From an uncultured bacterium (GTDB lineage Bacteria > Verrucomicrobiota > Kiritimatiellia > CAIKKV01 > CAIJXV01): 46,694 bases of DNA. Position 1 is the first letter of the stretch. Each line of letters begins with the position of its first letter. Below, piece after piece: positions 189 to 27,154 of the stretch. Location: the NCBI GenBank assembly GCA_903824675.1, contig CAIJXV010000006.1:1-46694 (forward strand), given 5' to 3'. The translations under genes and the position numbers were made by a program. The notes under the pieces were generated by a model. That model saw only the letters and a list, made by a program, of their open reading frames with translations, was not told the origin of the DNA and searched no databases.

Positions 189-262
189 AAATTAAACCCT
201 TGGCAAGAACTGTTATGCGGTTGACGGAACTTAGGCGGGTGTGGCTTTAATTGGGAGAACTA

Positions 263-1828
263 ATGATGACTCGATCCCTTGGATTGCGGTGTTTTTTGAT
301 TTGGGGCCTGATGACCTCCTGCGCTTGGGCGCGATTGATCGGGGGGCAAGCCTGCAATTTCGATGGTACGAATGCAGACGGACGTGCGAGGGCTGATCTG
401 GGTGTGTTCGATCCAAACACCGCCAATTGGTTTATTTTCAGCAATAGCAACGGGCCTGCACTGGCTTTCCCGGCGCAATGGGGTTTTCCTGGAGCCGCAC
501 CGGCTCCGGGCGATTACGATGGAGATCGGGTGGGGGATCTGTCCGTGTATCATCGGGATTCAGGGAACTGGTATATCCGGTCGATGAAAGGGACCGTGCT
601 GGCGTTCCCCGCCAATTGGGGCTGGTCGGAAGCGGATGCTTTTCCGGCGGATTATGACGGTGATGGCCGGACCGATTTGGGTGTTTACAACCGGACGACC
701 GGAATGTGGTTTGTGCGTTCTCTGGCCGGCGCGGTATTGACGTTTGGAAAAAATTGGGGTTGGACCGAATCGGTGCCGGTGCCGGCGGATTATGACGGGG
801 ATGGGAGAGCTAATCTGGCCGTGTACCATCGGCGATCCGGTACGTGGTATATCGATTCTCCAACCGGGACTGTGGCCTTTGCCCGGGCTTGGGGATGGAA
901 TGGCGCTTGGGCGGTTCCGGGCGATTACGATGGCGATGGAATTGCGGACTTGGCGGTGTATGATCGGGCCGGGGGGAAGTGGTATATTCAGACCCTGGCG
1001 GGGTCGAATCTGGCTTGGGGTGTGAATTGGGGTTGGGCTGAGGCGACTCCCGTGCCCGCCGATTACGATGGGGACGGACGGACGGATTTGGCGGTTTACG
1101 ATCGGAAATCCGGCCTTTGGTATATTCAAACTTTGGACGGAACAACGCTGGCTTGGGGCGTGAATTGGGGTTGGAAAGGGGCTGTGCCGATTCAGACGTA
1201 TGCCTTGCGGTCGAGTGAAGGCCTGGTCCTGACGGCGTTTGGCGATAGCATCACGTATGGGGAAGGGAGTCTTTCGGGTGGACCGACAACTGCGTATCCC
1301 GTGATGTTGGAAAAGAAACTGAATTTTCAGTTGGGAGGCTATTTCATCACGGTTAATAAAGGTAAATCGGGCGAATATACCTGGAAGGGCAAATTGCGCC
1401 TGCCTTCGGTGCTGGATGAGATGGTTCCCGATATGTTGCTCCTGATGGAAGGGGTCAACGATGCCTTGTACGATTATATGTTCGATGCGACGGAATTCAA
1501 TCTGGGTGAAATGATCGCCCAGGCTCAGGCGCGTGGTGCTAAAGCGATTCTGGCCACCGTGCCCCCGACCATTAAATCCGATTATGCCGACCGTTCGATT
1601 CAGGCCGGGCGAATCCGGGCTTTTAACCCTTATGTTTACACTATTGGCGAAAAATACAATATCCCGATTGCCGAAGTGTATGATTACATAACCTCCCGTC
1701 CCGACTGGGAACAGACGATGATGGATCAGGAGACCGCCAACCATCCCAGTCCGGCCGGGCATTTAAAAGTCCGCGATGCTTTCTACGATGCGTTCATGAC
1801 CCGATTTTATGAGGGTTCCTATTATTGA
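263..1828 (+). CDS. Secreted SGNH/GDSL-family hydrolase with six N-terminal DYDGDG repeats
   Basis: Predicted exported esterase of 521 aa. The ATG at 263 is preferred over an upstream in-frame TTG because GGGAG sits just before it. A signal peptide (about residues 1-23, ending CAWA) is followed by six tandem repeats of about 46 residues. Each contains D-Y-D-G-D-x-x-x-[DN]-L and a conserved W-Y-I and N-W-G-W; these resemble calcium-binding VCBS/FG-GAP beta-propeller blades and probably bind carbohydrate or the cell surface. The C-terminal SGNH domain has block I GDSITYGE (nucleophile Ser329), block III EGVND (Asn399) and block V NHPSPAGH (His494). The Asp usually found three residues before the His is Thr491, so the triad may be a Ser-His dyad or use Glu490. 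The substrate is unknown; deacetylation of a polysaccharide is a reasonable guess. An SDR gene follows after 39 bp. Confidence 0.85.
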   Translation: MMTRSLGLRCFLIWGLMTSCAWARLIGGQACNFDGTNADGRARADLGVFDPNTANWFIFSNSNGPALAFPAQWGFPGAAPAPGDYDGDRVGDLSVYHRDSGNWYIRSMKGTVLAFPANWGWSEADAFPADYDGDGRTDLGVYNRTTGMWFVRSLAGAVLTFGKNWGWTESVPVPADYDGDGRANLAVYHRRSGTWYIDSPTGTVAFARAWGWNGAWAVPGDYDGDGIADLAVYDRAGGKWYIQTLAGSNLAWGVNWGWAEATPVPADYDGDGRTDLAVYDRKSGLWYIQTLDGTTLAWGVNWGWKGAVPIQTYALRSSEGLVLTAFGDSITYGEGSLSGGPTTAYPVMLEKKLNFQLGGYFITVNKGKSGEYTWKGKLRLPSVLDEMVPDMLLLMEGVNDALYDYMFDATEFNLGEMIAQAQARGAKAILATVPPTIKSDYADRSIQAGRIRAFNPYVYTIGEKYNIPIAEVYDYITSRPDWEQTMMDQETANHPSPAGHLKVRDAFYDAFMTRFYEGSYY

Positions 1829-1867
1829 CGAACCGGCAGGATCGGCCACCGGTTATGAACGAGCACT

Positions 1868-2644
1868 ATGAATACGTTATGGAACGAATTGTTTGATTTA
1901 ACCGGTCGGACGGCTCTGGTGACCGGTGGCACGAAGGGTTTGGGGCGCGAAGTGGCCTTGACTCTGGCGATGGCTGGCGCTGATGTGGCCGTGTGTAGCC
2001 GGAATGGCGCTGAAGCGGCGGCTGTGGCCGAAGAGATCGCCGACCGGACCGGGCGACGGACCTGGGGGACGGCCGCGGATGTGACCTCGGAGGCTGAGGT
2101 GATCCGTTTGGTGGAGCGGATGGGGGACGAACTGGCTCCGCCGGACATTCTCGTAGCCTGTGCGGGGATCAATATCCGCAAGGGCAGCGATGAACTGACT
2201 GGTGACGAATGGGATTCGATCCTGGCGATCAACGTCAAAGGCAGTTTCCTATGTGCCCGTCAGGTTCTACCCGGGATGCGGAAACGCCGGTTTGGCCGGG
2301 TGGTTTTTTTAGGGTCGATGCTCTCCTTTATTTCGATTCCCGGCCGGGCGGCATATGCTTCGAGCAAGGCGGCTCTGCTGGGATTAACCCGGACGCTGTC
2401 ACTGGAATATGCCCCGGACGGCATTTGTGTCAACGCCCTATGTCCGGGACCGTTCGAGACACCAATGAACCTGCCATTATTGCAGGACAAGGCTAAATAT
2501 GAGGCCTTCATTGCCCGGTTGCCCATTGGACGCTGGGCGCAACCACGCGAAATTCGCGGTATCATTTTGTATCTGTGTTCGTCGGCCTGTAGTTTTATGA
2601 CCGGATCAAGCCTGGTCATTGATGGAGGATGGACTGCCCAATGA
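1868..2644 (+). CDS. Short-chain dehydrogenase/reductase (classical SDR)
   Basis: Cytoplasmic NAD(P)-dependent oxidoreductase of 258 aa, the usual SDR length. Visible motifs are the nucleotide-binding TGGTKGLG (residues 19-26), the structural CAG near the end of beta-4, the catalytic Y163-x3-K167 in AYASSKAA, and the PG motif after beta-6 (LCPGPFETP). The C-terminal GxxxxIDGGW ending resembles gluconate 5-dehydrogenase and FabG-like enzymes. The substrate cannot be read from sequence. Because the GH42 beta-galactosidase start overlaps its stop (ATGA), a sugar, sugar acid or polyol is more likely than a fatty-acid intermediate. The Shine-Dalgarno sequence is weak. Confidence 0.9.
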   Translation: MNTLWNELFDLTGRTALVTGGTKGLGREVALTLAMAGADVAVCSRNGAEAAAVAEEIADRTGRRTWGTAADVTSEAEVIRLVERMGDELAPPDILVACAGINIRKGSDELTGDEWDSILAINVKGSFLCARQVLPGMRKRRFGRVVFLGSMLSFISIPGRAAYASSKAALLGLTRTLSLEYAPDGICVNALCPGPFETPMNLPLLQDKAKYEAFIARLPIGRWAQPREIRGIILYLCSSACSFMTGSSLVIDGGWTAQ

Positions 2645-4650
2645 AAAAGAAAACACCCGCTCTGACATCCGGAACTGTTCCTCAATATATCGGTGTGGAT
2701 TACTATCCCGAGCATTGGACTCGCGAACGTTGGCCTCTTGATGCGCGGCTGATGAAAGAGGCGGGATTCAATGTTGTTCGCCTGGCTGAATTCGCTTGGA
2801 CCTTTATGGAGCCGGAGGAAGGGTGTTTTGATTTTGCCTGGTTGGACGAGGCGATTACGCATCTGTATAAAAATGGGATCTCGGTGATTTTAGGCACCCC
2901 GACGGCGACCATGCCGGCCTGGCTCTGCCGCAAGTATCCCGAGGTGATGCGAGTTCTGGAATCCGGTCACCGGGAGATTTGGGGGACCCGCAAAAATAAC
3001 TGTCCAACCAATGGGACCTACCGTCTATTGTCCGAACGGATTACCCGGGCCATGGCGGCGCATTACACGGCAAATCCGGCGGTGATCGGTTGGCAGACGG
3101 ACAACGAATTTGGCGGGCAACCCTGTTACTGTGATACCTGCAAGGTTCAATTTCAGGAATGGTTGCGGGCCAAATACGGGACCTTGGACAACCTGAACAA
3201 GACGTGGGGAACCCATTTCTGGAGCCACAGTTTCCGGGAATGGGCCGAGATCATGATTCCCGGGGAACTCCATAATCCCGGGATGTGGCTGGATTATAAA
3301 CGGTTTGTGACCTGGCAGGAGGTGCGATTCCAGCACGAACAGATCGCCCTCGTACGCGCCGGGTGCCCGGAGCATTTTATTACGCATAACTGTATGGGGT
3401 TGTATCAAAACCTCAATTATTACCAGTTGGCCGAGGAGTTGGATTTCGTGTCTTGGGACAATTATCCGGTTTGGGGCGCCCCCGATATTCCCTACGATGC
3501 CGCGATGGCCGCCGATCTGATGCGGGGTTTGAAACGGCGTAACTTCTGGATCATGGAGCAGTCGGCCGGGCCCGGCGGTTGGAACACCATGGGCCGCAAC
3601 GTCCGGCCCGGTGAACTGCGCAAAGTCGTTTACCAGCAACTGGCGCATGGCGCCGACAGCATTGTCTGGTTCCGGTGGCGCACCTGCACGGCGGGACGGG
3701 AGCAGTACTGGCACGGATTGCTGGGTCACGACGGGGTTCCTTTGCGCCGTTACCAGGAAGCGCGAACGACGGCACAGGAATTTCATAAGATCAAGACGCA
3801 TCTGGCCGGCACCACGGTTTGCCCCTCCGTGGGAATCCTCTACGATTACGATTCGCTTTGGGCGGTCAGCAACCAGCCCGGTTTCACCGGTAACCAATAT
3901 GTGGCCAACGTCCGACGTTATTATCAGGCGCTCCTCCGGGCGGGCGTGAATGTCGACCTGATCCGGCCGGGTTCCGATTTGAATGCCTACCGGTTGGTGA
4001 TAATGCCCCAGCAGTTCGTCCTGCCGGATACGCTGGCTGACCAGGTTATCGCCTATGTGGCCCAGGGGGGGGTCTTGTTGACCGATTTTCGGACCGGGGT
4101 CAAGGATGAGGGCGGGTTGTGTTACGAGCGAACGCTTCCCGGAAAACTCACGGATCTGCTGGGGATCGTCATCGAGGAATATGAGGCGTTGGATGACCAG
4201 ATGAAATATGCGGCAGATGGCGTTGAAGGGTTCCCCAAAGCCTTGACCGCGATTAAATTTGCCGATTGGATTACCGCCGGGGACGCGGAAGTGCTGGTCA
4301 AGTATCTCCCCTGGCACATGCAAGACTTTGCGGCTCTGACCCGGAAACAACACCGGAAAGGGTGTGCCTATTATCTGGGGACGGTTTTCAAAGAAGAGTC
4401 CTTTTATGATGCCCTGATCGGGACGCTTTTGAAGTCGGCCCGGATCACCCCGCTATTGACTCCTCCCCCAGGGGTGGAAGTGAGCTTGAGAGAAGGGAAG
4501 ACGGGTCGCCTTCTTTTCCTGTTGAATCACACCGAGGAAATTCAACGCATTGGAATCCCCTTCGCCGCTCAGGATTTGCTGACTCGCAAGAAAATCGTTG
4601 AACGGATCGAATTGGAGCCCTATGGGGTTGCGTTATTGAAGATGGGATAG
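2641..4650 (+). CDS. GH42 beta-galactosidase
   Basis: Intracellular-type beta-galactosidase of 669 aa (GH42 members are usually 650-700 aa); no signal peptide is seen. The N-terminal TIM barrel starts with GVDYYPEHW. The acid/base Glu156 lies in WQTDNEFGG and the nucleophile Glu306 in IMEQSAGP. A CYCDTC cluster just after the acid/base matches the zinc site of many GH42 enzymes. The trimerisation domain (around residues 390-600) and a small C-terminal beta domain follow. The start at 2641 overlaps the SDR stop (ATGA), with GGAGG 12 nt upstream; an ATG at 2629 directly abuts that GGAGG and is less likely. It would release galactose, or arabinose in some family members, from short oligosaccharides imported by the cell. 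Confidence 0.95.
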   Translation: MKKKTPALTSGTVPQYIGVDYYPEHWTRERWPLDARLMKEAGFNVVRLAEFAWTFMEPEEGCFDFAWLDEAITHLYKNGISVILGTPTATMPAWLCRKYPEVMRVLESGHREIWGTRKNNCPTNGTYRLLSERITRAMAAHYTANPAVIGWQTDNEFGGQPCYCDTCKVQFQEWLRAKYGTLDNLNKTWGTHFWSHSFREWAEIMIPGELHNPGMWLDYKRFVTWQEVRFQHEQIALVRAGCPEHFITHNCMGLYQNLNYYQLAEELDFVSWDNYPVWGAPDIPYDAAMAADLMRGLKRRNFWIMEQSAGPGGWNTMGRNVRPGELRKVVYQQLAHGADSIVWFRWRTCTAGREQYWHGLLGHDGVPLRRYQEARTTAQEFHKIKTHLAGTTVCPSVGILYDYDSLWAVSNQPGFTGNQYVANVRRYYQALLRAGVNVDLIRPGSDLNAYRLVIMPQQFVLPDTLADQVIAYVAQGGVLLTDFRTGVKDEGGLCYERTLPGKLTDLLGIVIEEYEALDDQMKYAADGVEGFPKALTAIKFADWITAGDAEVLVKYLPWHMQDFAALTRKQHRKGCAYYLGTVFKEESFYDALIGTLLKSARITPLLTPPPGVEVSLREGKTGRLLFLLNHTEEIQRIGIPFAAQDLLTRKKIVERIELEPYGVALLKMG

Positions 4651-4784: not shown

Positions 4785-5849
4785 TTAGAATTTGTAAGAA
4801 CACTGAGCCGTGACGCGCGAGATCCAGTAGTCGGTCGTCTCCCCATAAAGAAAACCACCCGCACCAATTTCCCAGTTGTGTTGGAATTTGCGGGTATATT
4901 CCAAGACGAGATGCAAACCCATTTCGACCGTTTCACTGTCAGAGGTGACATCCCCATTCTCAAAAAGAAACACGGGATTGATTTCGAATTCGAGCCGATT
5001 AACCTGATCCTTGCGGATGGTGTGCGCCGCAAGTCCCAGGGCGACGAAGGAGTCGGGACTGTAGTAGGCGGGGGTGGAATCGGCGAAATGTTCAAAATAA
5101 ATATTGGGCCGCAAAATGGTCCATTTCCCGGCCTCACTGTCGAGGATGGGAAGCTGGTAATGGGCGTAGGCGAAAAATTGCTCGTTGTCATCCTGCTGGT
5201 AATCCGCGCCGCCCACCTGTAGCCGAAGCTGTTGTTCAGACACCGGCACCCAATCGGCCGTTGCCCAGATGCGGTTGATACGAGCATTCTGATCGATCAA
5301 TTCCAAATCGTTAACCCGGGGATATTGGCGGGGATTAAGGACATCATGGATTGTCCAAAAAGATTCCGAAGCCGCCTGCAGAGACCAGACGGAACGGTTT
5401 TCCTGTTGGAAGTGAGCGCCCAGTTGTCCCCCGATCAGTTCGTCGTCGTCAAAAAATTCACCGGATAACCGGCCGGAAATCCATGCCTGTGGCTGGATTC
5501 TGTATTCGTCCAGGAACACATGAAGGGCCGTGCGTTCAAAGTCATTGGACCCTGCGGTTGTCCCCTGATCCTGTGAAAAATCGCCCCACAGGGCCTGGAG
5601 CCGCAGAGGCAGGGCAGGATCGGGCCAGAAAGCCACTTGAACTCCGCCCTGAACCACTTGAATATCATTAGCGTCACGCAAAGCGTTGAAAATCAATCCC
5701 ACCGAGGGCTGGGTTTCAGCCTCCAAGCTCTGTTGGGCGGCTTGAATGGCCTTTGGATCGTCTTCAACGGCCGCATTCAGGGAGAGCACCATTGCTCCGC
5801 CCAGGAAGCCCATCGCCAGTCTGTGCCCACATTTGTTTAATTGCGTCAT
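4785..5849 (-). CDS. Outer-membrane beta-barrel, BcsC C-terminal-like exopolysaccharide exporter
   Basis: Predicted outer-membrane porin of 354 aa. Evidence: a signal peptide (about residues 1-26), many alternating amphipathic beta strands, and a C-terminal SYKF, the terminal-Phe signature used for barrel assembly. A segment reading YYSPDSFVAL closely resembles the Y-[FW]-S-P-Q segment of the BcsC barrel through which cellulose leaves the cell. A GGAGG sequence lies 8 nt before the ATG. It is the last gene of a three-gene operon, 36 bp after a large TPR protein. In canonical BcsC the TPR scaffold and barrel form one chain; here they are separate genes. The specific exported polymer is unknown. 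An unrelated porin remains possible, though less likely in this context. Confidence 0.75.
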   Translation of the reverse strand: MTQLNKCGHRLAMGFLGGAMVLSLNAAVEDDPKAIQAAQQSLEAETQPSVGLIFNALRDANDIQVVQGGVQVAFWPDPALPLRLQALWGDFSQDQGTTAGSNDFERTALHVFLDEYRIQPQAWISGRLSGEFFDDDELIGGQLGAHFQQENRSVWSLQAASESFWTIHDVLNPRQYPRVNDLELIDQNARINRIWATADWVPVSEQQLRLQVGGADYQQDDNEQFFAYAHYQLPILDSEAGKWTILRPNIYFEHFADSTPAYYSPDSFVALGLAAHTIRKDQVNRLEFEINPVFLFENGDVTSDSETVEMGLHLVLEYTRKFQHNWEIGAGGFLYGETTDYWISRVTAQCSYKF

Positions 5850-5885
5850 GTGGAAGTCCTCCCCATCAACGTCGTCGGCTCCGGT

Positions 5886-8663
5886 TTATTTATCGCCGGC
5901 CTTGCGGATTTGGTCCAATTGCCGATCCGCCGCCGCTTCTTCGACTTTCAGGTCGTCGGCGACTTTTGTTGGGAAATCGGCGGCTTTTTTGTAACTCTCG
6001 CTTGCGGCTTTACGATCGCCCATGGCTTGGGCGGCTCGACCCCGCCAGATCCAATATCGCCGTTGGGCGGTTTTGGGATCTTTGACCAGCCCGTCAAAAA
6101 TCCGGAAGGCTTCCAGCTGCCGGTCCCGCGCCATGGCCACCAATCCCAGCCATTCCAGGCCTTCTTCTTGGTGGGAAATGGAATCCTTATGTTGCTCCAG
6201 AATTTTAGCGGCCTCGCTGGTTTTGCCCTGGAGATGGAGCGCCTGTACCAAACCCAATTGCGCGTGCCAATCCTGTTGGTCCTGATCCAGACGGGCCCGG
6301 GCCCATTTTTCAGCCTCCGGGAACACATTGGCCGCCAGCGCCGCCCGCATCAGTTCGATCGCCTGGCCATCCCAACTCTTGACCGCGGCCACATTGGTAT
6401 AAAGGACATAGGCATCCGATTCCCGGCGCACGTTAATGAAAAAGCGGGCGGCTTCCAGCCGGACCTCGGGAATTTTCCCCAACGGGCTGCCCAGCAACTC
6501 ATCGTAAAACTTTAGGGCCAAGATGACATTCCCAGCGCTGTCCCGAGCCGCCCGGGCCATTTTGAGAACCAAGTCCCGGTCCTGCTCTGCTCCACCGATC
6601 CGTTGATAAGCAATCAATGCACCGGCCATATCGCCGGCATCAACACTCAAATCACCCCAGGCTTCCAAAATTGTTCGATCGGCAGCCGGGTCTTGGGCGA
6701 GTTCCCGATACAAGGCCCGGGATTTATCTTTCCGACCTGCTTTTCGATCCTGGCCTGCCAGCCAGATTTGTTCCTCACGGGTCAGTGGCCGCATTCCCGC
6801 CAACTGATCGAGGAGATCCGCGGTTTGGCCCGCATCTCCCATCATCGACGCGGCCCGCGCTGCCGTGAGTAAATGGTCCTGCGACACCGGCTTGAGCGCC
6901 AATAAGGGGGTTAGTGCCTCCAGCGCTTCGCGGCCCTGACCCAGTTCCAAACTCGCCTGGGCTACCCCCTGGCGGGCGGAGGCCATCGAAGCTTCGGGGC
7001 CGGGCCCGGCGAGCACTTGGCGATAGGATTTTACAGCATCTTCGTTGTTCCCGTTCCACCGTTGGAGATCGGCCAGTCGCAGGGTTAAGGCGGTTGAATT
7101 ACCCCATTTACGTGTCTCTAGTTCCACCACCAGTGGAATCGCTTTCGCATACTGCTTATTGATCTCATAGACGTTCGCCAGATCATTCAGTATGCGTGGA
7201 TCATTTTGCGGATCAGAGGGTGATTTCACAAGCGCCAGAAGTAGTGGTTCGGCTTCGGCATAACGATGGAGTTCCATGGCCAACTCTGCTCGGGCTTGAA
7301 GATTGTCGGGCGCTGCATCGCGTCCATAAGCTGCATACGCTTCTTGGGTCTGCCCCGCCGCCCACAGGGCAGCGGCGGCGGCCAGACGGGCTGTGCGTGC
7401 GGACACCTCGTCCTTTTCTGCCAGGGACAACTTGAGATACCATCGGGCAGAGGGTTCATGTCGGTTTAAGACCCCGTTCATTTCTGCGAGTTTGCGGAAA
7501 AGTTCACGTTCCAAATCGGGAGCGGGATGATTCGCCAAAAGCAGTTCGGCTTCCCGGATGGCCGCGTCAGCCGCCCCGGCTGACGTCAGAATTCGTAGGC
7601 GCTCCAGCCGCTGTCCGGCGTTCAATTGTTCGTCCGGAATGGCCGAAACCAAATCTATGGCCCGATCCGAATTACCGGCGGTGCGGAATTGCCCCGCCTG
7701 CAAGAGTTGTTCCGGGACGGTCAAGGGGCGAAGCGTTGCCAGTTGGTCAAAAGCGGCAACGGCGTCGGTGGCCGCGCCCGCCTGCATAAAGGCCCGTAGG
7801 GCAAGATTCAGAACATCAGGGTTGACGGGGTTGTCAGCGACCAATATTCGCGCCCACGGCAGAGAGGACTGGGGATCGGCTGTCTCAATTCCGGCCGCCG
7901 TCAGTCCCCACACCACCGCATTGGAGGTCGTGTTGTCAATGGGATGAGTGAACGACTTGCGATACCAAACCACAGCCACATCCGGTCGGCCGGCCCAGTG
8001 ATACAACTGGCCGATCCGGGCACATAAATCCGCAGTTTCTCCTTTTGTCCGGACGATCGCTTCGTAGCGTCCGGCCGCCGCGGCGTGCTGTTGGATGGCT
8101 TCTTCCTGGATCGCCGTTTCGCGCAACACGTTCACATCATCTGGTCGCTGGCTCAATAATTTGTGCAAATCAGCCAACGATTCCGAATACTGCTGGTATT
8201 GTGCCAGAATTTTCGCCCGGCGTAACCGGTTGGCGGGCGTCAGTCGATCCGGTTTCAGACGGAGGATCAAGTTGACGGCTTTACCCGGGTTCCCCATGCG
8301 ATCGTGAATTTGTGCCAATGCAAACCAAGCTTCAGGGTTTGAGGTGTCGGCATTAAAGGCTTCGGTGTAGGCCTCCAGAGCCTCATCGAAATTGCCCAGA
8401 GCGGTTTCGATGTCCCCTTTAAGAATCAGGTAACCTCCAGTTCCCGGACTTGAGTTGAGGGCGCGTTCCACCTCGGGTTTTGCTTCGGCCCATCGATGGG
8501 CCGCAACCAAGCGCTCGGCTTCCCGGAAGTGATCCACAGCATCCTTCCAATATTCGGGTTGGCGTTGCTGGGCATAAAACAACACCCCCACGAGCCAGAG
8601 GGCCACGAAAATTTTGGTGGGCCAATAATGATGATTAGGATTCTTTGATTCCATAGAATTCAT
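5886..8663 (-). CDS. Large membrane-anchored TPR-repeat protein (BcsC/PelB-like periplasmic scaffold)
   Basis: A 925-aa protein with one N-terminal membrane segment (about residues 13-28, IFVALWLVGVLFYA) and then almost only tetratricopeptide repeats, recognisable by A-x-x-x-W/Y...A...P spacing such as EAYTEAFNADTSNPEAWFAL. No enzymatic domain is visible. The start at 8663 has AAGGAG upstream; a longer frame reaching 8756 would run deep into the synthase gene and is rejected. It overlaps the 3' end of the GT2 synthase gene by 29 bp and is followed by the barrel gene. By analogy with BcsC, AlgK and PelB TPR domains, it probably links the inner-membrane synthase to the outer-membrane pore and shields the growing glycan. 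This role is inferred from context. Confidence 0.8.
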   Translation of the reverse strand: MNSMESKNPNHHYWPTKIFVALWLVGVLFYAQQRQPEYWKDAVDHFREAERLVAAHRWAEAKPEVERALNSSPGTGGYLILKGDIETALGNFDEALEAYTEAFNADTSNPEAWFALAQIHDRMGNPGKAVNLILRLKPDRLTPANRLRRAKILAQYQQYSESLADLHKLLSQRPDDVNVLRETAIQEEAIQQHAAAAGRYEAIVRTKGETADLCARIGQLYHWAGRPDVAVVWYRKSFTHPIDNTTSNAVVWGLTAAGIETADPQSSLPWARILVADNPVNPDVLNLALRAFMQAGAATDAVAAFDQLATLRPLTVPEQLLQAGQFRTAGNSDRAIDLVSAIPDEQLNAGQRLERLRILTSAGAADAAIREAELLLANHPAPDLERELFRKLAEMNGVLNRHEPSARWYLKLSLAEKDEVSARTARLAAAAALWAAGQTQEAYAAYGRDAAPDNLQARAELAMELHRYAEAEPLLLALVKSPSDPQNDPRILNDLANVYEINKQYAKAIPLVVELETRKWGNSTALTLRLADLQRWNGNNEDAVKSYRQVLAGPGPEASMASARQGVAQASLELGQGREALEALTPLLALKPVSQDHLLTAARAASMMGDAGQTADLLDQLAGMRPLTREEQIWLAGQDRKAGRKDKSRALYRELAQDPAADRTILEAWGDLSVDAGDMAGALIAYQRIGGAEQDRDLVLKMARAARDSAGNVILALKFYDELLGSPLGKIPEVRLEAARFFINVRRESDAYVLYTNVAAVKSWDGQAIELMRAALAANVFPEAEKWARARLDQDQQDWHAQLGLVQALHLQGKTSEAAKILEQHKDSISHQEEGLEWLGLVAMARDRQLEAFRIFDGLVKDPKTAQRRYWIWRGRAAQAMGDRKAASESYKKAADFPTKVADDLKVEEAAADRQLDQIRKAGDK

Positions 8664-10221
8664 ATGGCGATTCTCCTTCCGCCCAACGTTTGCGGCGAAT
8701 TGCCGCCGAAATAATATGAAACAGTGTCCAGATCGTGAAGGCCGACAGAAATGCATTACCGGTAATCAGTCGCACCGGGCAGGTTTCAGCCCAGAGGGCA
8801 TAAACCGGCGCAATCACGTTTGCCCCCACCAGTAAAATCTGGGGCAAAACCGCGAGAATGGCCGGTCGGTTCCGGAAGGTCTGACTGGCTGGGCCCACAT
8901 TATTGGAGTGATATCCGGGTTTCTTTTTTCCCTTCGGATAAAACAACGCCCGAATCACGTTGATGAAATGGACGGGAAACAGTCCGGCCAAATGCCGGAA
9001 TTGGTTGCCCGCCTGCCCGCCCAGGCACATATAATGGATCGATAATACCATCAAGAAGAAATAGAGGCCCCGGAGCACCAGGTAATGCCCGATGTTTTGT
9101 GAGAAGATCGCATTGCCGGTCAGGCAGGTCCACACGGGAAGCAGGAAAAAAAAGGGGAGCATGAACCCGGAAAAAATATAGGATTGGGCCACGGTTAAAT
9201 AATGAATTTTATTTTTGAACGACAATCCCTTTTTAAAGAGCGGATTGTCGAAAAAAAAGATCCGCATCGTGTCCAGCGCCCATTGGCCGCGTTGCTGGTA
9301 GACCCCCCAGATCGTGGTTGGCGACAAGCCCCGGCTGAGCGGATGATTGAAGTAGAACGAGCGCCATCCCCGTGCATGCAGTTCGTAGGACGTGGTTAAA
9401 TCCTCCACCAGATTCCAGGTGACAAACCCCCCGATGTCGTCCAGTGCGGCGCGCCGGTAAATCACCCCCGTGCCGCAGGCCATGGCGGTATCCATGTTGT
9501 CCATTGCCAATTGCACGACTCCGTAAAAAACCTCCGATTTGTTATAAAACGGGTCGTCGTCATAAACGAAATACCGCTGTTGTGATTGAACAAAAGCCAC
9601 TCGTTCAAATTTCATGTAGCCGGCGAGTTTTTCGATGATATCCGCGTCCGGAACCTGGTCGGCATCCATCGTTAAAATCAGTTCGCCGGATGAATGGGCC
9701 AGTCCGAAATTTAAGTTCCCGGCCTTGGCGTCGACCTGGGGAACTTCAGCGCGTTTGCGTGACAGGTAGTGGAAGCCCAAGCGTTGCGCCAAGGACTGGA
9801 CTTCATCCGAGGCCCCATCATCCAGGACATACACTTGAAGCGGACCCTTCCATCGGACCGATTTAATGGCTGATAACGTCTTGGAAATCACTTCTATCGG
9901 TTCGTGGTAAGTCGGCACAAAAATATCCACCGAATAATCCTTGGTGGGGGTCAAACTCATGTCTGGTTTGAAACGCAGGCGCCAGAGTCCGCCCATGGAA
10001 AGGATAAAGAGCCACAGGCAGAATGCCTCAAAGAAAATATAGAACCACGCGATGACCGGGTGTGAATGATTGTGATAGTAGACGGCCCAAATCAGGTAAC
10101 ACAGGCCCACCCCGATGGTTAAAATGGCGGTTATCTGAAATTTCAGGCGCCGGGGCGCGTCCTCCCGGTCATGGTAGCGCCGGTCACGGGGCGAACTCGA
10201 AACGGTTGGATCAGTTTTCAT
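8635..10221 (-). CDS. Membrane GT2 processive beta-glycan synthase (cellulose-synthase-like)
   Basis: A 528-aa inner-membrane glycosyltransferase family 2 synthase. Two N-terminal membrane helices (about residues 30-83) precede a cytosolic GT-A domain with D134-D135 (DDGAS), D186-x-D188 (DADQ) and the general-base Asp274 (VED). Four or five membrane helices follow. The Q-x-x-R-W processivity motif reads QRGQW (residues 310-314), with Gln where Arg is normal. There is no C-terminal PilZ domain, so it is shorter than BcsA (700-870 aa) and not obviously controlled by c-di-GMP. The start at 10221 is preferred because of an AAGGGG Shine-Dalgarno; an upstream GTG at 10314 is possible. It probably polymerises a UDP-sugar into a beta-glycan exported by the next two genes. 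Cellulose, curdlan-like and mixed-linkage glucans are all possible. Confidence 0.88.
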   Translation of the reverse strand: MKTDPTVSSSPRDRRYHDREDAPRRLKFQITAILTIGVGLCYLIWAVYYHNHSHPVIAWFYIFFEAFCLWLFILSMGGLWRLRFKPDMSLTPTKDYSVDIFVPTYHEPIEVISKTLSAIKSVRWKGPLQVYVLDDGASDEVQSLAQRLGFHYLSRKRAEVPQVDAKAGNLNFGLAHSSGELILTMDADQVPDADIIEKLAGYMKFERVAFVQSQQRYFVYDDDPFYNKSEVFYGVVQLAMDNMDTAMACGTGVIYRRAALDDIGGFVTWNLVEDLTTSYELHARGWRSFYFNHPLSRGLSPTTIWGVYQQRGQWALDTMRIFFFDNPLFKKGLSFKNKIHYLTVAQSYIFSGFMLPFFFLLPVWTCLTGNAIFSQNIGHYLVLRGLYFFLMVLSIHYMCLGGQAGNQFRHLAGLFPVHFINVIRALFYPKGKKKPGYHSNNVGPASQTFRNRPAILAVLPQILLVGANVIAPVYALWAETCPVRLITGNAFLSAFTIWTLFHIISAAIRRKRWAEGESPYEFYGIKES

Positions 10222-25303: not shown

Positions 25304-25387
25304 GCTTTTGTTCATTTTTCTTTGGGTTTTGGTCCCAATACGCTAGATTGACGCCACGGGATGCAAACCAACCGGAAGGCAGGCGCG

Positions 25388-27154
25388 ATGGTGGCACAGA
25401 CGAAATGGCGGGTGGGGTTGATTCTCGCGTCCGTCCTGGTCATGGGCCTGGGGCTGATCGGCGGGGCGCGGGCGGTGCCTGAATTGAATCTCCCCCTGGT
25501 GGATTCGGCCGCCTATCATCGCCAGGCGACTGAATGGGCTACAGGGCAATCGTCCGCGACCGGTCCATTTTGGCAGCCCCCGCTTTATCCTGCGCTTCTA
25601 ACAGCTCTTTACCGGGTGGCCGGACCCCGGCCGATCATGGCCCGTGGCGTTCAGGTGCTCCTCCTGGCGCTGGGTGTGGGGTTGACCTACCTGCTCGCCC
25701 GCCGCTGGTTCAATTTTCGGGGTGCCGCCATTGCAGCCGGTCTGACCGCCCTTTGTGGTCCGCTCTGGTTCTATACCCTCCAGTTGATGCCCGTGATCCT
25801 GTTCATGATCCTGAGTCTGGCGGCCCTGTTGATGACGTTGCGATTCAGCGATGATCCCCGCCGTCGTTTTGCGGTCGGAGCGGGCCTTCTGTGGGGACTG
25901 GCGACATTGACGATTCCCACCGTTTTGGTGGCGGTAGGAGCCTTGTTGTTGGTGCTTGTTCTCCGCCCAACCGAGCCGTCCCGGCCGGTGCCCTGGTTGC
26001 GGATCGGAGGATTGGCCTTGGGGGTGATGTTGGTGATCCTACCGGTGACCCTGCGCAACCGATGGGTCGGTGACGACTGGGTTTTGATTTCCGCCAATAG
26101 CGGCATTAATTTTTATATCGGCAACAATGCCCGGACCGATGTGACGCTGGCCACCCGGCCTGGCCTTGATTGGGAACGGTTGGAGCGCCTGCCGTATCTG
26201 GCCGGCGCGCGAACGGCGGCTGAAGCCGATCGGTATTTCCGGCGCGAGGCCTGGGATTGGATTCGGAGTCACCCCCGGGCCTTTATGCTCAATGAGCTCC
26301 GCAAAATTCGCGATTTTTTTCAGGCCCGCGAGATTCCGCGCAATCTGGACTTGGCGACGATGCGGGAGTATTCGCCGGGACTACGCCTTTTGACGGGTGA
26401 ATGCCTGGGTATTCATTGGCCGGGTGGGATATTGATTCCATTGGCCGGGTTGGGATGGATTGGATTGATGCGGCGGGGCGGGGCGGGGCGTTTGGTGGGG
26501 ATTTATGGGTTGGCGTTTGCGGTCGGGGTGATTATCTTTTTCCCTGCCGGTCGATATCGGGCGCCGCTCTGGCCGCTGATGGCCATTGGCGCGGTGGCGG
26601 CGATGGATCAGGCGATATCGGCCTGGCGTACAAGGCGATGGCTGCCCTTGGCGGCCGGGTGCGTGTGCTTCCTGGTTTTGGCGGCGGCGGTCAATATTCC
26701 CTGGGCGCATCCCAGCGAGGGGGTGGCTTTCAAGGCGGAACTGGAGCGGGCGGTGGGGGCGGCCTTGGAAGTGCGGGGGGATGTCAAAGCCGCGGAAGCG
26801 CGGTATCGCCAGGCGCTGACGCTGGATCCGGAAAGTGCCGATGCCCACTATCTGTTGGGCAATCTTTGTAGGGCGCAACATCGTCCGGACGAAGCGCTGT
26901 TGCATTTTCTTGAAGCCTTGCGCCTGAGACCTGATCACGATTCAGCCCGTGGCAATCTAGGTTTCCTGCTTTATGAGCGGGGCGAAATCGGTCCGGCCTT
27001 GAAGGAGTTGGAACTGGCGGTTCGACTGAATCCCTTGAATGCGGCGGTGCATCACAATTTGGGCGTGGTTTTGCAGGCCGTCGGACGCAAGATCGAGGGC
27101 GAAAACCATTTCAAAAAAGCCCGGGCCATTCGGGAATTATTCGCGAGTTATTGA
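25388..27154 (+). CDS. PMT/ArnT-type membrane glycosyltransferase with C-terminal TPR repeats
   Basis: A 588-aa inner-membrane protein. Around ten hydrophobic helices (residues about 10-440) carry the GT-C features of the PMT_2 family: an early loop acidic residue in LVDSAAYH, a conserved P-P-L-Y-P in FWQPPLYPALL, and a periplasmic region. These enzymes move a sugar from a polyprenyl-phosphate carrier to protein, lipid A or another polymer. The last 130 residues (about 455-588) are three to four TPR motifs, such as ADAHYLLGNLCRAQHRPDEA. ATG at 25388 follows GGAAGG; an ATG at 25361 is the alternative. The acceptor is unknown. The stop overlaps the rlmN start. Confidence 0.85.
   Translation: MVAQTKWRVGLILASVLVMGLGLIGGARAVPELNLPLVDSAAYHRQATEWATGQSSATGPFWQPPLYPALLTALYRVAGPRPIMARGVQVLLLALGVGLTYLLARRWFNFRGAAIAAGLTALCGPLWFYTLQLMPVILFMILSLAALLMTLRFSDDPRRRFAVGAGLLWGLATLTIPTVLVAVGALLLVLVLRPTEPSRPVPWLRIGGLALGVMLVILPVTLRNRWVGDDWVLISANSGINFYIGNNARTDVTLATRPGLDWERLERLPYLAGARTAAEADRYFRREAWDWIRSHPRAFMLNELRKIRDFFQAREIPRNLDLATMREYSPGLRLLTGECLGIHWPGGILIPLAGLGWIGLMRRGGAGRLVGIYGLAFAVGVIIFFPAGRYRAPLWPLMAIGAVAAMDQAISAWRTRRWLPLAAGCVCFLVLAAAVNIPWAHPSEGVAFKAELERAVGAALEVRGDVKAAEARYRQALTLDPESADAHYLLGNLCRAQHRPDEALLHFLEALRLRPDHDSARGNLGFLLYERGEIGPALKELELAVRLNPLNAAVHHNLGVVLQAVGRKIEGENHFKKARAIRELFASY

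Follow-up and report, generated by a model that had tools for sequence, protein, structure and literature searches.

Does the three-gene locus on the minus strand of the window (the whole stretch of 46,694 nucleotides analysed here) encode a cellulose (Bcs) apparatus whose exporter has been broken in two, or a machine of another kind? The initial annotation had read it as a beta-glycan synthesis and export operon with a split BcsC. We favour, at a probability of about 0.74, a synthase-dependent exopolysaccharide machine whose outer-membrane exporter is split into two proteins. Judged by its sequences, this system would work like a Bcs- or Pel-type exporter and is not a member of Bcs.

The genes for a PilZ-less GT2 synthase, a TPR protein and a barrel protein adjoin in that order (Table 1). 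All three ORFs are in place with the tight spacing that had been proposed: the TPR gene begins with an ATG at 8663, preceded by AAGGAG 9 nt upstream, and overlaps the end of the synthase (GT) gene by ~27 nt, and the barrel gene begins with an ATG at 5849, preceded by GGAGG 8 nt upstream, after a gap of 36 nt from the TPR stop. The locus is flanked by a GH42 gene on the opposite strand and by a PALP-family gene 391 bp upstream; no GH8, BcsB or PilZ gene adjoins this copy. Glycan-degrading genes are abundant in the window (251-4650; 12136-46067), including a GDSL lipase with FG-GAP, GH42, heparinase II/III-like, GH31, GH95 and GH65, and a further protein (25361-27154) combines a PMT_2 glycosyltransferase domain with C-terminal TPRs.

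Table 1. Features of the three-gene locus, in positions of the window
Feature	Position	Strand	Basis
PilZ-less GT2 polysaccharide synthase, 528 aa	8635..10221	-	Pfam, PDB, TIGR03030
WNLVED, catalytic-base motif (TED in BcsA; Thr to Val, Asp kept)	9400..9417	-	Alignment, 21 clade + 6 outgroup synthases
QRGQW in place of QxxRW	9280..9294	-	Alignment, 21 clade + 6 outgroup synthases
Clade-specific D317	9271-9273	-	D in 21/21 clade members vs G in 6/6 outgroup
R320	9262-9264	-	Alignment
YHSNNV at the place of the FxVTxK gating loop	8896..8913	-	Alignment
Shine-Dalgarno-like AAGGAG of TPR gene	8673..8678	-	Sequence
TPR protein, 925 aa, putative periplasm-spanning helper	5886..8663	-	Pfam TPR; homologous to TPR part of ORFs in L072 and L126
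N-terminal hydrophobic segment of TPR protein, probable inner-membrane anchor	8571..8612	-	Alignment of 12 N-termini
TPR-gene patch, codons 721-840, low synonymous divergence to second copy	6144..6503	-	pS comparison
Shine-Dalgarno-like GGAGG of barrel gene	5858..5862	-	Sequence
Outer-membrane 16-stranded beta-barrel exporter (predicted), 354 aa	4785..5849	-	AlphaFold2, Foldseek
Probable signal peptide of barrel, residues 1-26	5772..5849	-	Sequence; junction alignment
YYSPDSF motif of barrel	5046..5066	-	Alignment of 12 homologues

Pfam assigned Glycos_transf_2 / Cellulose_synt to the first gene, without PilZ, and TPR families to the second, and found no family in the third. The barrel was judged by its fold, since its sequence profile had no genuine match in the PDB; profile alignments to E. 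coli BcsC, PgaA and NfrA were weak (PgaA best, probability 26%). An AlphaFold2 model computed from the alignment of 12 homologues (pLDDT 84.8, pTM 0.81) has an N-terminal helix and 16 strands, and Foldseek against the PDB placed PgaA (4y25), BcsC (9b8a, 9b8h, 6tzk) and PelB (9h80) at the top, with TMq of 0.68/0.75, 0.75-0.76 and 0.66, respectively, ahead of OmpG at 0.45. The similarity to BcsC-type exporters thus appeared in the model, and domains, model and fold search agree on the annotated set of glycan synthase, TPR protein and barrel exporter. The YYSPDSF segment and the terminal Phe noted earlier are both present; Y-x-S-P is invariant in the 12 homologous barrels, and the E. coli BcsC barrel has YYSPQEY. 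The mature barrel (4788-5771) is strongly acidic, with a net charge of -27. A search by sequence through 58 relatives and through 388 genomes of the phylum found no homologue of the barrel outside the window's own genome. Pfam BCSC_C (PF05420) had no match across that whole genome at E 1e-3 in a search in which the E. coli control gave a match, and for this reason the exporter lies outside the BcsC family: of the annotated "split BcsC", the split stands and the BcsC membership falls. By its modelled fold it belongs, in split form, to a distinct TPR-barrel family resembling PgaA, BcsC and PelB.

The split is meant literally, because homologues carry the TPRs and the barrel in one ORF. On the Longimicrobiales contig (L072) a single such ORF lies between the GT, which it directly follows, and a GH8 gene, and in eight genomes from the phylum of the Desulfobacterales MAG (L112, L113, L114, L116, L117, L119, L121, L122) one TPR-barrel ORF of 1384-1484 aa comes next after the GT, 24 nt away or overlapping it. 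Two of the fused ORFs from this phylum, scanned with Pfam, gave TPRs and a weak PgaA_barrel match below the cut-off, and the next ORF encoded an M48 peptidase in the five cases tested. In the genome with the nearest GT (G893) the barrel is in frame with the last stretch of the TPR part, which has a frame break further up; its TPR-barrel gene accordingly spans two frames (L111:9467-12171), by assembly error or a real break. GH8 lies beside the locus in L072 and L111, and in G893 a GGDEF/HD-GYP protein lies beside GH8. The split form was found in one genome only, in both of its copies, with a signal peptide at the junction, where the fused homologues have TPR or linker sequence in the junction alignment. 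The fused form is thus apparently the rule and the split form a derived exception. That the split is a frameshift or assembly artefact of a fused gene, which the frame break of L111 (itself a possible error) might bring to mind, is very improbable: the split falls at the same position in the two copies, which lie on different contigs and have a dS above 1, and the barrel has a signal peptide and a Shine-Dalgarno-like site of its own that the fused homologues lack. We rejected it on these grounds. A different arrangement, possibly another split exporter, was seen in G805 (L125:1765-9473), where a different GT2 (QKLRW, TED) is followed by a 220-aa ORF, a 779-aa TPR ORF and a 782-aa ORF with weak TPR similarity that ends in F, and then by GH8.

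The initial annotation gave the TPR protein one membrane anchor. Its hydrophobic run of 14 residues is present and is followed by a conserved juxtamembrane FW/YW motif; that the run stays uncleaved is probable from the alignment of 12 N-termini of TPR or TPR-barrel proteins, in which a hydrophobic run of 11-22 residues ends in FW/YW (FY in two) and no signal-peptidase site is conserved, most members lacking one. In some members the run could instead be a signal peptide, as suggested by VYA at a possible cleavage point in the second copy. The fused homologues carry the same hydrophobic anchor, which in them would tie the inner to the outer membrane in a single chain, by analogy with the tie proposed for PelB (PMC12141448).

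The same three genes recur in the same order on contig 13 of the genome (60610-66044), with 81% (GT), 75% (TPR) and 78% (barrel) identity to the window copy; the barrel of this copy has a net charge of -26. A search for the gene order thus succeeded within this genome, and relatives elsewhere carry the fused TPR-barrel. Omega between the copies is 0.087 for the GT, 0.153 for the TPR gene and 0.105 for the barrel gene, at dS of 1.0-1.3, which indicates purifying selection on all three genes; since the set is repeated in the same order under such selection, it is not a chance assembly. Within the GT, conservation between the copies peaks at codons 301-360 (97% identical), the stretch that includes QRGQW. 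In TPR codons 721-840, pS to the second copy falls to 0.17-0.31 from about 0.6 elsewhere, a pattern that likely reflects gene conversion of this patch between the loci. Of the two loci, the one in the window is shorter. The fuller locus runs on into GH8, a response-regulator/GGDEF/HD-GYP protein, VTC, DUF4956, HlyD and an outer-membrane efflux protein; a pair of polyphosphate polymerase and DUF4956 also occurs next to pel clusters of Gram-positive bacteria (PMC7112168). This GH8, the only one found in the genome, retains the Glu and Asp matching E55 and D243 of E. coli BcsZ. The reported absence of PilZ and BcsB was borne out by the lack of PilZ in the synthase and of BcsB in a search of the whole genome, which has two small stand-alone PilZ proteins; with neither BcsB nor a BCSC_C barrel in the genome, no canonical bcs locus was found elsewhere in it.

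The strongest sign of something new is one that the initial annotation missed, the altered motifs of the synthase. In the PDB the window GT is closest to BcsA (E 2e-46), and it scores 221 bits against NCBIfam TIGR03030, below the cut-off of 699; against the PgaC model it reaches 64 bits (cut-off 422) and is not PgaC-like. We compared 21 members of its clade with 6 outgroup synthases. The Arg of QxxRW, present in 6/6 outgroup sequences, is replaced by Gln in 17/21 clade members, by Thr in 3/21 and by Gly in 1/21 (L123, a divergent row). The third residue after the Trp is Asp in all 21 and Gly in all 6, so that WxxG becomes WxxD, and the sixth is Arg in 21/21 clade members vs 1/6 of the outgroup. 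The Thr of TED is Val, Ile or Leu in 20/21 (VED is usual), and FxVTxK is degraded, with Phe replaced by Tyr in 20/21 and Thr by Asn in 14/21. The catalytic Asp residues (D, D, ED) are kept in 21/21. Both copies in the genome have QRGQW, and their gating-loop sequences are YHSNNV and YRTNNS. The window synthase therefore lacks defining features of BcsA (QxxRW, FxVTxK, PilZ with BcsB, a TIGR03030 score above the cut-off) and, as far as sequence can tell, is not a BcsA.

The altered positions are ones of known importance. Across the BcsA, CrdS and BgsA subfamilies, conservation of the QxxRW Arg and the FxVTxK loop is reported as >99%, and that of the Thr of TED as incomplete (PMC6821405). Both the Arg and the loop are essential in BcsA and CesA8; the Arg of BcsA, R382, forms a bridge to the diphosphate of the donor and a stack with the gating-loop residue F503. 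R382A abolishes activity, R382F leaves ~16% of it, and the T506A and K508A/R mutants show a severe or complete loss (PMC10592267). In the clade the equivalents of R382 and F503, mutual contact partners, have both been replaced together. From the changes of QxxRW to QxxQW/TW, of FxVTxK to Y-x-x-N and of WxxG to WxxD, the clade probably differs from BcsA in how it holds the diphosphate of the donor, and given the behaviour of the R382 mutants, a natural Gln or Thr at this place could mean a very different reaction. A literature search of partial coverage for QxxRW variants found no description of QxxQW or QxxTW forms.

The clade extends well beyond this genome. The nearest GT relative is that of G893 (50% identity), and a genome-wide scan found others in MAGs labelled Gemmatimonadales (46%), Longimicrobiales (43%), Woesearchaeota (42%), Desulfobacterales (37%), Anaerolineales (33%) and Woesebacteria (29%); other synthases of the window genome's phylum are at most 36% identical to the window GT. 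In the tree the window copy, the second copy and G893 form one group (support 99/94), which the Gemmatimonadota members join next (100/98); support is 99/99 for the QxxQW group and 99/98 for the QxxQW and QRGTW groups together. A profile search gave matches at E 1e-80 in two phyla: in that of the Desulfobacterales MAG they came from 13/247 genomes, 12 of which have the clade motif, and in that of the Longimicrobiales MAG from 16/395 genomes, where the three best alone reach scores like those of the clade. The Woesearchaeota-labelled contig (L074; JACQNB010000075.1) carries a QRGTW synthase and may come from a genuine archaeon or from a binning error. The Anaerolineales and Woesebacteria loci gave no match to the TPR part or the barrel, as is expected if these organisms have no outer membrane. 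A sub-branch of the QxxQW group with VEDVHTS (L115, L118, L120) has no TPR-barrel ORF adjoining the GT.

From the parts, their homologies, the modelled barrel fold and the selection on the genes, we infer a route, localisation and regulation as follows. The GT would polymerise a beta-linked glycan, most likely a beta-glucan, and extrude the chain through the inner membrane; next to the synthase, the TPR solenoid would be held in that membrane by its anchor, carry or shield the chain on its way through the periplasm and dock non-covalently on the barrel, which would serve as the exit. The GH8 of the sister locus may trim or release chains for both copies, and c-di-GMP may act through the GGDEF/HD-GYP protein of that locus and not through a PilZ domain on the synthase. 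The product is probably a beta-glucan and possibly new, as had been suggested; the GH8 endoglucanase at the fuller locus points to a beta-1,4-type glucan.

What the synthase makes is where the readings part. The locus may be an ordinary cellulose locus that has diverged, making plain beta-1,4-glucan from UDP-glucose, with the motif changes as compensated drift. A BcsZ-type GH8 beside the sister copy, in L072 and in L111, BcsA as the closest solved structure and the retention of every catalytic Asp are all consistent with this; we nevertheless consider it unlikely, given the genome without BcsB or a BCSC_C barrel, the TIGR03030 score of less than a third of its cut-off, and the change throughout the clade of residues that BcsA, CrdS and BgsA all but invariably keep. 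We lean, at somewhat less than even odds, to a non-cellulosic beta-glycan (of other linkage or sugar) made through an altered donor site, with GH8 acting on it. The GH8 family also holds chitosanases, xylanases and lichenases. The coherent exchange of two residues in contact in BcsA (PMC10592267) argues for such a product, as does the acidity of the split-lineage barrel, which is unusual both against the E. coli BcsC part compared (-27 vs -9) and against the other homologues (-10 to +9). Another contact to the diphosphate does not have to mean another sugar, however, and the acidity may reflect the organism.

The loss of activity in R382A and its strong reduction in R382F (PMC10592267) would also fit a synthase that is catalytically weak or non-processive, in a system that moves glycan made by other enzymes. 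We hold this to be improbable, as the strong purifying selection is centred on the QRGQW segment itself, the motif is conserved clade-wide over several phyla, and exporter genes adjoin. Our broader proposal is made tentatively, and we put it at somewhat less than even odds: the QxxQW/QxxTW synthases may form an undescribed, widespread BcsA-like subfamily with a remodelled donor site and a non-cellulose glycan, served in diderms by its own family of anchored TPR-barrel exporters, which is split in the window lineage.

If so, the window lineage offers a trans-envelope conduit that nature has divided into two parts. The clade is monophyletic, occurs in several phyla, has both motifs changed, lies beside export genes and is under purifying selection, and as such is a natural test case in which one can ask how synthases hold their donor and choose linkage and sugar. 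Because TPR part and barrel are separate proteins here, two functions that BcsC, PgaA or PelB make hard to dissect can be studied apart: one can ask directly which of the two contacts the synthase and whether a single-chain exporter is needed.

Among known systems, Bcs shares with this locus a BcsA-like GT2, an exporter of TPRs and a 16-stranded barrel with YYSP, and, at the sister copy, a BcsZ-type GH8; it differs in having PilZ and BcsB, a one-piece exporter matched by BCSC_C and unaltered QxxRW, TED and FxVTxK, and here the TPR part is probably anchored in the inner membrane. The absence of PilZ and BcsB alone is not new, as E. coli NfrAB and S. meliloti BgsBA also lack them. NfrAB, which makes the NGR glycan of E. 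coli, pairs a BcsA-like GT2 without PilZ or BcsB with a TPR-barrel exporter encoded beside it (PMC8669472), but NfrB has MshEN and QKSRW/TED and NfrA is fused; we rejected membership, as NfrA_C (PF13283) is absent from the genome and phmmer of the window GT against E. coli NfrB gave no match. BgsA/BgsB, the machinery for a mixed-linkage glucan, resemble the locus in a BcsA-like GT2 without PilZ and in an associated HlyD, as at the sister copy, whereas the BgsA-like synthases examined keep QxxRW, TED and FxVTxK and have no adjoining TPR-barrel pair. In alginate export, AlgK and AlgE are a TPR protein and a barrel on separate polypeptides; AlgK is a lipoprotein. AlgE, however, has 18 strands, and the alginate synthase and modification genes differ from those of this locus. 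PgaA is among the best fold matches and is itself fused; the PgaB deacetylase of the PNAG system does not adjoin this locus, and the synthase is unlike PgaC. PelB provides the precedent for an inner-membrane-anchored TPR exporter, with a TPR scaffold, an N-terminal hydrophobic segment without a cleavage site and a 16-stranded barrel (PMC12141448). The Pel system uses PelF/PelG and a PelC ring, and no PelC, PelA, PelF or PelG gene was found among the genes adjoining either copy. PelB is one polypeptide, whereas here the same three features, the anchor as a probable one and the barrel by fold match, are spread over two proteins.
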